This document shows positions 7,638 through 12,952 of a stretch of DNA of 37,241 bases, in pieces. Each line of letters starts with the position of its first letter. The first letter of the stretch is position 1. The notes beneath the pieces were generated by a model. That model was given only the letters and a program-made list of their open reading frames with translations. It had not been told where the DNA came from and ran no database searches. Both the position numbers and the translations under genes were made by a program. The stretch spans positions 1-37,241 of the forward strand of contig MTMO01000042.1 of the NCBI GenBank assembly GCA_002011235.1, read 5' to 3'. This DNA is from Archaeoglobus sp. JdFR-27. GTDB taxonomy: Archaea; Halobacteriota; Archaeoglobi; Archaeoglobales; Archaeoglobaceae.

Positions 7638-7733
7638 TGGGGCGGCGGAGATTTGAACTCCGGTCGCCGGCTTTTTTGGCTGCGATTGCTAACTCCCAAA
7701 GCCGGAAGGATAACCAGGCTACCCTACCGCCCC
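7638..7733 (-). tRNA. tRNA-Pro (anticodon TGG) with a 22-base intron
   Basis: On the minus strand the sequence folds as a tRNA: acceptor GGGGCGG/CCGCCCC with discriminator A at 7638 and no encoded CCA, D arm, anticodon stem CCGGC/GCCGG, and T arm CGGAG-TTCAAAT-CTCCG. The anticodon TGG is at 7698-7696, giving proline. The anticodon loop is 29 bases instead of 7. A 22-base intron (7694-7673) between positions 37 and 38 restores a normal loop. Exon and intron form a canonical bulge-helix-bulge: helix TTTG/CAAA with 3-base bulges GGA and AAA. It should be removed by the tRNA splicing endonuclease. Confidence 0.93.
7673..7694 (-). other. tRNA-Pro intron (canonical 37/38 position)
   Basis: The intron lies directly after the base 3' of the anticodon. 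The 4-bp central helix pairs exon loop TTTG with intron CAAA; the 3-base bulges are GGA and AAA, with cleavage after the second base of each. A short intron stem (GTT..GC with GC.AGC around the loop AATC) closes the motif. Confidence 0.8.
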
Positions 7734-9798: not shown

Positions 9799-11133
9799 AT
9801 GATGAATTCTAACACTGAAATTTCCAAGGTAGGAGAGGGAAAGGTAGGAATCGAGGAGTATATAACTAAAACCCCCGGAATAGGGGGAAAGATAAAGTCA
9901 GATCCGTCGTTCTTCGAGGTAACTGAAGTAATCGATCTCCCTGAGTTTCACGAGGATGGTTCGTATCTTATAATTCTTGTGGAGAAAACGAACTGGGATA
10001 CGATAAATTTCGCTCGTGTCCTTTCAAATAGGCTTGGAATAAGTCAGAAAAGGGTTGAGTATGCTGGTACGAAGGATAAGAGGGCCAAAACTCTTCAGTT
10101 TTATTCAATAAAAAGAGTGGATGATAGAATAGTCCAAAGGCTGAATGAGTTGAGCATTAAGGATGCGGAAATTAAGGTTCTTGGGAAGGCTAGGAGGGGT
10201 TTGAAGCTTGGAGACCTGCTTGGAAACTTTTTTGAGATCAGAATTACGGAGATTGATGGAGAGGAAGAAGAAATAAGTTCTACCGTTGAGGAACTAAAGG
10301 AAAAGGGCATTCCGAACTTCTTCGGCCTTCAGAGGTTTGGGACAATAAGATACATCACCCATGAAGTAGGTTTGCATTTGCTTAGGAGGGAATACGAGGA
10401 GGCATTCTGGATATACGTTGCAAAGCCATTTGAGCTTGAAAACGAAGAAGTCAAAAAAATTCGAGAGGAGCTCTGGGAGACGAGAGATGCGAAATTCGGT
10501 TTGAGAGAGGTTCCCAACTACCTAAGATATGAAAGGAACCTTCTCCAGAAATTGCAGGAAGGATTAAACGAAGAAAAAGCTTTGCTTACCCTTCCCAAAA
10601 ACTTGAAACTCATGTTTGTCCATGCCTACCAATCATGGATCTTCAATCGAACGCTCTCTGCAAGAATAAAGGAATTTGGGAGCTTGAGGGAGTTTGAAAC
10701 CACCGATTACGTAGACTTTATTTCGATCAGAAAGGTTGAACATCCTAGAACTCAAGAACTTTTCGTTCCGCTCCTTAAAAATGAGCCTGTCAAAACAAGT
10801 CTAAATGAGAGAAGAGTGGCGTTTCTAATATCAAAGCGTAGAAGCTTGCTCGTCCTACCTTTGCCAGGGTACGATACCAAACTTGATAAGGAAAACTGGG
10901 CAATAAGAAAGGAGATGGAATTCCTCGAAGCTGATGGAGTATCGATTGAAGATTTTAAGCATGAATATAAAGAGTTCTCTTCATCGGGCAGTTTCAGAGC
11001 TGCCGAGATTCCATTCGATTTCTCAAACCTTGAGTTTGAGTGTGATAAAACAAATAAGGAAGCATACTTCAGCTTTTTCCTTCCAAAGGGATGTTATGCA
11101 ACCGTCTTCTTAAGGGAGTTCATGAAAAACTGA
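9799..11133 (+). CDS. truD: tRNA pseudouridine(13) synthase TruD
   Basis: This 444-aa protein isomerises uridine 13 in the D arm of tRNAs. Seen in sequence: an N-terminal PGIGGKIKSDPSFFEVTEVI strand pattern, the family motif RVEYAGTKDKRAKTLQ containing the catalytic aspartate (about residue 93), GNFFEIRI, the GIPNFFGLQRFG segment, and a late LPLPGYDT motif. Between them sits the insertion domain typical of the family. The start is the first of two tandem ATGs after GGAG at 9787-9790. It is probably monocistronic. Confidence 0.95.
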   Translation: MMNSNTEISKVGEGKVGIEEYITKTPGIGGKIKSDPSFFEVTEVIDLPEFHEDGSYLIILVEKTNWDTINFARVLSNRLGISQKRVEYAGTKDKRAKTLQFYSIKRVDDRIVQRLNELSIKDAEIKVLGKARRGLKLGDLLGNFFEIRITEIDGEEEEISSTVEELKEKGIPNFFGLQRFGTIRYITHEVGLHLLRREYEEAFWIYVAKPFELENEEVKKIREELWETRDAKFGLREVPNYLRYERNLLQKLQEGLNEEKALLTLPKNLKLMFVHAYQSWIFNRTLSARIKEFGSLREFETTDYVDFISIRKVEHPRTQELFVPLLKNEPVKTSLNERRVAFLISKRRSLLVLPLPGYDTKLDKENWAIRKEMEFLEADGVSIEDFKHEYKEFSSSGSFRAAEIPFDFSNLEFECDKTNKEAYFSFFLPKGCYATVFLREFMKN

Positions 11134-11171: not shown

Positions 11172-11231
11172 ATAGGCTCAGAACTCAATACCCTCATCAT
11201 TTTTCAGAGGGGTCCTTTCATCATCGCCTAT
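11172..11231 (-). ncRNA. C/D box guide sRNA (2'-O-methylation guide)
   Basis: On the minus strand this 60-base stretch has every C/D element in order: terminal stem ATAGGC, box C ATGATGA (11224-11218), 10-base guide AAGGACCCCT, box D' CTGA (11207-11204), 3-base spacer, box C' ATGATGA (11200-11194), 12-base guide GGGTATTGAGTT, box D CTGA (11181-11178), and a closing stem GCCTAT exactly complementary to the first six bases. Archaeal sRNAs of this build recruit L7Ae, Nop5 and fibrillarin to methylate rRNA or tRNA at the base paired five positions upstream of D or D'. The expected targets would contain AACTCAATACCC and AGGGGTCCTT (DNA letters). I could not assign the target RNA. Confidence 0.88.
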
Positions 11232-11389: not shown

Positions 11390-12952
11390 ATGAAGGTAAA
11401 TCAAATGTCGGTAGAGGATATTATAAGGAGAAGTGCCAAGCTTTTTGAAGACGAAACTGCTGTGGTTTTTCAGGAAAAAGAGGTAACTTACAACGAACTC
11501 TACGAGAACTCAAATCGAATTGCAAACTCGTTGGCAGAGATGGGAATAAACAAAGGTGATGTGGTTTCCGTAATCTCATTAAACTCACCAGAATACATAG
11601 AGCTGCTCTTTGCGGTAACCAAAATAGGTGCTGTCATCAACCTGATAAACGTCATGCTCTCCCCGCAAGACATTGCCTACATCATCGGACACGCTGATGC
11701 AAAGATAATCTTCGTAGAGGAATTTTTCGCTGACGCTGTGGATAAGGTTGCTGGAAGCAAGCAGAGAGTTCTGATAGAGAGGGGATTGGGCAAAGATGCT
11801 GAAGCCAAGTATTCGGATTTGCTCACTGCATCAGCGGAAGATCCAGAAGTTGACATCCACCCTGACGATCCCTGCACCCTCATCTATACAAGTGGAACGG
11901 AAGCTTTACCGAAAGGGGTAATTGCCTCCCACAGAAACTGGTACGCAACGCTTATGAGCGGTTTTTATGATCTAAAAGTGACCAGGGACTCTAGAACTCT
12001 TTTAACGATACCCATGTTCCATGTAGCAGGAAGCTACCTTGTTCTTTGCGGGCTTATGGCAGGTGCAAAGCTGTTCGTGCAGCAAAGAGCCGATCTGGTT
12101 GAAGCGATGGAATATCTGGAAAAATACGATGTTAATTATCTTGTCTGGCCTCCCACACTGTATATGGCTCTCGTACAGATGACAAAGGGAGAGAGAACCT
12201 TCGAGTCCGTGAACAAGCTTATCACCTTCGGCAACCCCTTCCCGAGTTATCAGGCTTTGCTCATGTCAGCAAAGATGTTTCCGAATGGTAAGTGGATGAA
12301 CTACTATGGACAGACGGAGAGCAATCCTCTAGGTTTAAGCTATGGCTTTGTCGAAATGAACGAAGAGATAGCAGAAAAATTCGTTAAAAACTGCCTCGGG
12401 AAACCCCATTTAAACGTGGAAGTCAGGATAGTTGGTGATGAGGACGGAGAGGTTGCGGAAGGTGAGGTGGGTGAGCTGCTGATGAGAGGGCCAAGTGTTA
12501 TGATGGAGTACTACAAAAACCCGGAAAAAACTGCGGAAACCCTTAGAGATGGATGGTTACACACGGGAGATCTTTTCAGAGTTGGTGAGGATGGGTTGTA
12601 TTACTTTGTGGACAGAAAAAAAGATATGATAAAAAGTGGAGGAGAGAACGTCCCATCTCTGGAAGTTGAAACAACTATTGCTATGCATCCAAAGGTTGGA
12701 GCTTGTGCCGTCATCGGCGTTCCACATCCCTACTGGGTGGAGGCTGTAGTTGCTGTTGTCGTTCCCAAACCCGGAGAAGAGCTAAGTGAAGAGGAGATAG
12801 TTGGGTGGTGCAAGGAAAGGCTTGCAAAATTCAAGGTGCCAAAGAAGGTGATCGTTACCGGCTACGAAAATATACCAATCACACCTTCTGGAAAAATAAT
12901 GAAGCGTCAGCTGAAGGAGAAGTTCAAAGATCTGTTTGCAGAAAAAGCCTGA
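11390..12952 (+). CDS. AMP-forming acyl-CoA synthetase (fatty-acid/long-chain type)
   Basis: The 520-aa product is an ANL-superfamily ligase that activates a carboxylic acid with ATP and CoA. Motifs seen: the P-loop-like LIYTSGTEALPKGV (a variant of TSGTTGxPKG) near residues 160-175, YYGQTES, WLHTGDLF, the hinge region VDRKKDMIKSGGENV and the C-terminal catalytic lysine motif TPSGKIMKRQLKE. No membrane segment. The ATG at 11390 is preceded by GAGGT; an upstream in-frame TTG at 11357 has no ribosome site. Archaeoglobales encode many such enzymes for fatty-acid use; substrate chain length cannot be read here. It appears to be a single gene. Confidence 0.92.
   Translation: MKVNQMSVEDIIRRSAKLFEDETAVVFQEKEVTYNELYENSNRIANSLAEMGINKGDVVSVISLNSPEYIELLFAVTKIGAVINLINVMLSPQDIAYIIGHADAKIIFVEEFFADAVDKVAGSKQRVLIERGLGKDAEAKYSDLLTASAEDPEVDIHPDDPCTLIYTSGTEALPKGVIASHRNWYATLMSGFYDLKVTRDSRTLLTIPMFHVAGSYLVLCGLMAGAKLFVQQRADLVEAMEYLEKYDVNYLVWPPTLYMALVQMTKGERTFESVNKLITFGNPFPSYQALLMSAKMFPNGKWMNYYGQTESNPLGLSYGFVEMNEEIAEKFVKNCLGKPHLNVEVRIVGDEDGEVAEGEVGELLMRGPSVMMEYYKNPEKTAETLRDGWLHTGDLFRVGEDGLYYFVDRKKDMIKSGGENVPSLEVETTIAMHPKVGACAVIGVPHPYWVEAVVAVVVPKPGEELSEEEIVGWCKERLAKFKVPKKVIVTGYENIPITPSGKIMKRQLKEKFKDLFAEKA

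Follow-up and report, generated by a model that had tools for sequence, protein, structure and literature searches.

The window, by which we mean the whole 37,241-nucleotide stretch of Archaeoglobus sp. JdFR-27 DNA analysed here, carries a short gene on its minus strand at 11172-11231, between truD (9799-11133, plus strand; Pfam TruD, E = 3.1e-131) and an AMP-binding acyl-CoA synthetase gene (11390-12952, plus strand). The gene measures 60 nt with its terminal stem, and its boxes, guides and conservation confirm it, at the level of sequence, as a textbook archaeal C/D box sRNA gene. Placed on the other strand 38 nt beyond the truD stop codon, it overlaps neither coding sequence; its original description as antisense to the gap between the two genes is therefore correct for the gap only.

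Read from 11231 down to 11172, the minus strand begins with the 5' arm of the terminal stem, ATAGGC (11226-11231), and a single G, followed by the C box ATGATGA (11218-11224), the D' guide AAGGACCCCT (11208-11217), the D' box CTGA (11204-11207), an AAA spacer (11201-11203), the C' box ATGATGA (11194-11200), the D guide GGGTATTGAGTT (11182-11193), the D box CTGA (11178-11181) and the 3' arm GCCTAT (11172-11177), which completes a stem of 6 bp. The four boxes were recognised both in the sequence and in an alignment of 29 sequences. Boxes, stem and coordinates are all as the original prediction gave them.

The definition of archaeal C/D box sRNAs set out in a passage of PMC2584109 has the C (RUGAUGA), D' (CUGA), C' (UGAUGA) and D (CUGA) boxes in this order, with guides of about 8-12 nt between them, and the sRNA conforms to it in both box order and guide size. 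Across the whole window a strict pattern and a relaxed one each found the box layout once, and there was no match in 300 first-order Markov shuffles. Together with the conservation of boxes and guides across genera, this bears out the earlier opinion that such an arrangement is unlikely to be a product of chance. Elsewhere in the window, a tRNA-Pro(TGG) gene at 7638-7733 on the minus strand is, at 96 bases, longer than usual and probably contains an intron.

Distribution of the sRNA among archaeal genomes

We searched 60 genomes (the window's own and 59 others) by BLAST with a query of 68 bases. Matches at E <= 2e-8 were obtained in 34 of the 59 other genomes, and all 34 are among the 37 further genomes from the window's own family or order. 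Within that family and order BLAST missed G016, G026 and G033. The first two do carry the sRNA (loci L323 and L322), with the D guide GGGTCTTGAGTG and the D' guide CAGGGCCCCT; no sRNA was found in G033, a genome rated 72% complete. G016 (L175) and G026 (L179) also share another C/D sRNA, with the D guides CCGTTACGCTAA and TTGTTACGCTAT, which surfaced as a weak match.

Of 59 genomes of the class, 51 have the D-guide motif TGATGA-N5-TTGAG-N2-CTGA and eight lack it, including both genomes of the sister family (G038 and G039). In a sample of the phylum the motif was found in 64 of 392 genomes and was absent from 328, with 13 of the 64 lying outside the class. Nine of the matches outside the class were examined, and seven had the full C/D frame; the match in G176 and the second of those in G320 lack it and look like chance.

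Conservation in the 29-sequence alignment is highest in the boxes and guides, where it extends across genera. In Archaeoglobaceae the D guide reads GGGT[A/T/C]TTGAGT. In the terminal stem most of the 29 sequences keep the inner pairs, partly through changes in both arms, but 10 of the 29 have lost the outer pair. A diverged second copy of the sRNA (L181) sits at about 261-312 on the plus strand of contig C4 (6015 bases) of the window's own assembly and resembles the sRNA of G019, a genome of another genus; with an estimated contamination of 3.89%, this copy probably represents a stray contig rather than a paralogue.

The D guide and the wobble base of tRNA-Leu(CAA)

In C/D sRNAs methylation falls on the base that faces guide nucleotide 5, counted from box D or D'. 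Re-reading both guides under this rule returned the same target strings and the same predicted modified bases as the original prediction. We compared the D guide with 60 tRNA-candidate loci, 47 from the window's own genome and 13 from its congener G005, and its best match was the pre-tRNA-Leu(CAA), with C34 facing the fifth base of the guide counted from box D. The margin in that scan was small, the next loci scoring 9.5 against 10.0, and G005 contains a chance stretch, not within the rRNAs, that does equally well.

In the window's own genome the site consists of GACTCAAG followed by GCCC, the start of a 12-nt intron, and across genomes it reads GACTCAAG followed by (A/G)(C/T)C. The pairing includes G-U wobbles and, in three genera including the window's own, a mismatch of A opposite G37. 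Because the site differs in these ways from AACTCAATACCC, an exact string search would miss it. Such a search in the own genome returned three exact matches, including the sRNA, and 21 with one mismatch; at the 23 loci that remain once the sRNA is set aside, ARAGORN detected a single tRNA, a tRNA-Arg that does not coincide with the match.

All 29 genomes that have both the sRNA and tRNA-Leu(CAA) show pairing of the D guide with this tRNA, spliced or unspliced, at guide positions 2-7 and 9-11; these genomes are related and do not represent 29 independent events. With G-U pairs counted, position 1 is paired in 24, position 8 in 20 and position 12 in 28 of the 29. Column-permuted D guides never attained this fit (0/1000), and a second D-guide fit, in the T arm of tRNA-Leu(CAA), was weaker (6.6 versus 9.8). 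Left outside the 29-genome counts were G004, G007, G013, G029 and G036, which have the sRNA but in which tRNA-Leu(CAA) was not found by pattern, as well as G021 with its long sRNA spacer, G016 and G026, whose sRNAs were found later, G033 with neither RNA, and the copy on contig C4.

A wider scan of genome contigs, in which the boxes but only TTGAG of the guide were fixed, produced at least 118 stretches, of which 80 were examined. Among the 80 matches listed, 62 come, judging by their record titles, from outside Archaeoglobi, namely from Micrarchaeota, Thermococcales, Thermoplasmata, Nitrosopumilus, Methanothrix, Heimdallarchaeota and others. At the positions left free, all 62 of these listed sRNAs have T at 2 and 9 and A at 10; 57 have G at 11 and 54 have C at 8. 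The consensus of the free positions in these 62 is the complement of ACUCAAGAUC in the anticodon arm of tRNA-Leu(CAA). In Thermococcales, the sRNA and the tRNA-Leu(CAA) of the same genome can form at least 10 consecutive Watson-Crick pairs in eight of eight cases.

A tRNA-Leu(CAA) target is therefore well supported by genome comparison, and we consider it highly probable (about 0.9) that the D guide targets the wobble base of this tRNA, C34, for 2'-O-methylation. The conserved D-guide site upholds the original reading of the locus as a C/D methylation-guide sRNA.

The own tRNA-Leu(CAA) gene has its 12-nt intron after position 37, and introns of 12-46 nt occur at the same place in nine of the 29 genomes; all nine begin with ACC or GCC. 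With an intron in this position, the 5' splice site would fall within the guide duplex. At guide position 10 all 50 matches from the window's family have G and the two order-level relatives have A; beyond the class, G149 has G as well. A G at this position can pair either with U39 of the spliced tRNA or with an intron C, whereas an A can pair with U39 only. For the window's sRNA the predicted duplex energy is -13.6 kcal/mol with the precursor and -10.7 kcal/mol with the spliced tRNA. The guide may be tuned to both precursor and spliced tRNA, although the intron's own folding could also keep the RCC sequence.

In the mechanism that we propose, L7Ae would bind the C/D and C'/D' kink-turns of the sRNA, Nop5 and fibrillarin would then join, the D guide would pair across the anticodon loop of tRNA-Leu(CAA), and fibrillarin would methylate the base opposite the fifth guide nucleotide, C34. 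Assembly of L7Ae, Nop5 and fibrillarin and guided methylation are established for the C/D sRNA family. For the present sRNA we infer expression, RNP assembly and methylation, and likewise the timing of the reaction relative to splicing and an effect on the reading of UUG codons. UUA also encodes leucine, so the benefit of wobble methylation need not be fidelity.

The D' guide and alternative explanations

Within tRNA-Leu(CAA) the D' guide fits best to the variable arm, AGGG[G]U(C/U)C (AGGG[G]UCC as target of the window's own guide), with guide positions 2-8 paired in 27 of 29 genomes, the exceptions being G014 and G037. Only 6 of 1000 permuted D' guides did as well there. The same string occurs in the other tRNA-Leu genes examined of the own genome, so other tRNA-Leu species could be D' targets too. 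That the D' guide targets the variable arm of tRNA-Leu is accordingly a tentative proposal, to which we would give about even odds. Six of eight Thermococcales D' guides match UGCCGAG in the D arm of tRNA-Leu instead, one of the six at its second-best site; of the remaining two, one tRNA ends at a contig end and one sRNA has a different guide. For P. furiosus tRNA-Leu(UAA), the portion of PMC7668247 available to us lists a predicted C/D-guided G47 that was not detected there.

The D guide may, on the other hand, aim at C34 while the D' guide has no methylation target at all. The ACCC of the D' guide (11208-11217) is complementary to the GGGT of the D guide (11182-11193), and in the free RNA this pairing could serve to close the C'/D' kink-turn, which would offer another reason for conservation of the D' guide. 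A consensus fold pairs both guides, the window's RNA alone is predicted to fold likewise, and the free RNA may on this model form a hairpin around the C'/D' motif. Moreover, in tRNA-targeting sRNAs of Pyrobaculum the other guide usually has no target, according to an excerpt of PMC7994747. The D' CCCC, however, is unchanged in G036 and G037, in which GGGT of the D guide has become GGAT or AGAT, and the variable-arm fit in 27 of 29 genomes, which so few permuted guides equal, also speaks against this reading. A D' guide without a methylation target falls only a little short of an even chance.

Most described archaeal C/D sRNAs target rRNA, and D and D' might accordingly aim at 16S and/or 23S. 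No 16S or 23S gene was found in the 67 contigs of the own assembly, so rRNA targets were tested in the 16S and 23S of seven relatives. There the D' guide reaches a mean score over the seven genomes of 5.71 at the 23S site TGGGGCCCGT, close to the 5.86 for the variable arm of tRNA-Leu, and the fit is good in G006, G018, G027 and G035; in G005, G009 and G015, however, mismatches fall within positions 2-8. The best columns of 16S and 23S in these genomes were equalled by 132 of 300 permuted D guides and 205 of 300 permuted D' guides, so that neither guide is complementary to rRNA beyond chance, and rRNA methylation appears a very unlikely function of this sRNA. An apparent covariation between the D' guide and 23S vanished once the sites were aligned, and the 16S site AGGGGCTT, considered for D', fails in G015. 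The search for a complementary rRNA or tRNA site that the original prediction had proposed thus succeeded for tRNA, with the conserved C34 site of tRNA-Leu(CAA), but gave nothing above permuted guides for rRNA.

From its position, the RNA might also act in cis on truD or on the acyl-CoA synthetase gene, as an antisense RNA or a regulator. Besides its orientation and its closeness to the truD stop codon, such a role might draw on the presence of truD, a tRNA pseudouridine synthase gene, near the sRNA in eight of 36 loci (the window's own and L026, L028, L034, L036, L038, L039 and L042). Yet neither coding sequence is overlapped, and the other 28 loci keep the boxes and guides with no truD match in their flanks (about 1-1.5 kb, some ended by contig ends). 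Proximity to truD is not family-wide, and we regard regulation in cis as extremely improbable.

Methylation of C34 directed by the D guide remains our preferred reading. It can be extended to a joint one, in which both guides would act on one tRNA, D at the wobble C34 and D' at a variable-arm G of tRNA-Leu; the D guide would have stayed fixed across archaea while D' drifted within tRNA-Leu, to the variable arm in Archaeoglobaceae and the D arm in Thermococcales, and the G at position 10 of the Archaeoglobaceae guide would serve the tRNA both before and after splicing. Taken as a whole this combination is rather unlikely.

Relation to known guide RNAs

The kind of RNA and its mechanism are already known; the target proposed for this Archaeoglobus sRNA is one that the original prediction had not identified. 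An otherwise orphan sRNA gains a concrete predicted target, and RNA-guided methylation of the tRNA-Leu(CAA) wobble base is indicated by sequence comparison in several archaeal groups besides Pyrococcus. Furthermore, the intron in tRNA-Leu(CAA) provides a natural test of whether wobble methylation precedes splicing. No publication on an Archaeoglobus tRNA-Leu guide was found among the best matches in the open-licence literature, but older small-RNA cloning work in A. fulgidus may have recovered this RNA already. According to the part of PMC4644070 at hand, 163 of 489 sRNAs had no rRNA complementarity, and many of these matched tRNA or 5S rRNA.

Rfam gave no match to the sRNA at gathering score, and none to snoPyro_CD anywhere in the window; below that score only archaeal C/D families appeared for the sRNA. 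The box layout is like that of snoPyro_CD (RF00095, 40.9 bits) and sR1 (RF01152, 36.8 bits), but both scores lie below the gathering score of 45 and the guides do not correspond.

The closest likeness is to the Pyrococcus tRNA-Leu(CAA) guide, an RNA of the same class with the same predicted target nucleotide; guides for position 34 of this tRNA in Pyrococcus are attributed, in an excerpt of PMC7994747, to Omer 2000, Gaspin 2000 and D'Orval 2001. In the part of PMC7668247 that we used, C34 of P. furiosus tRNA-Leu(CAA) is listed as predicted, with Cm34 reported for tRNA-Met and not for tRNA-Leu(CAA). The Thermococcales sRNAs found here carry the guide GATCTTGAGTG and may correspond to the published Pyrococcus RNA. 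Relative to them, the Archaeoglobaceae guide has G instead of A at position 10, and its D' guide is unrelated. As described in portions of PMC2584109 and PMC7994747, the tRNA-Trp intron guide and the tRNA-Met Cm34 guide, sR49 or its Haloferax counterpart, likewise address C34 of a tRNA that often bears an intron. The tRNA concerned is a different one here, and, unlike the intron-encoded tRNA-Trp guide, the Archaeoglobus sRNA has a separate intergenic gene.
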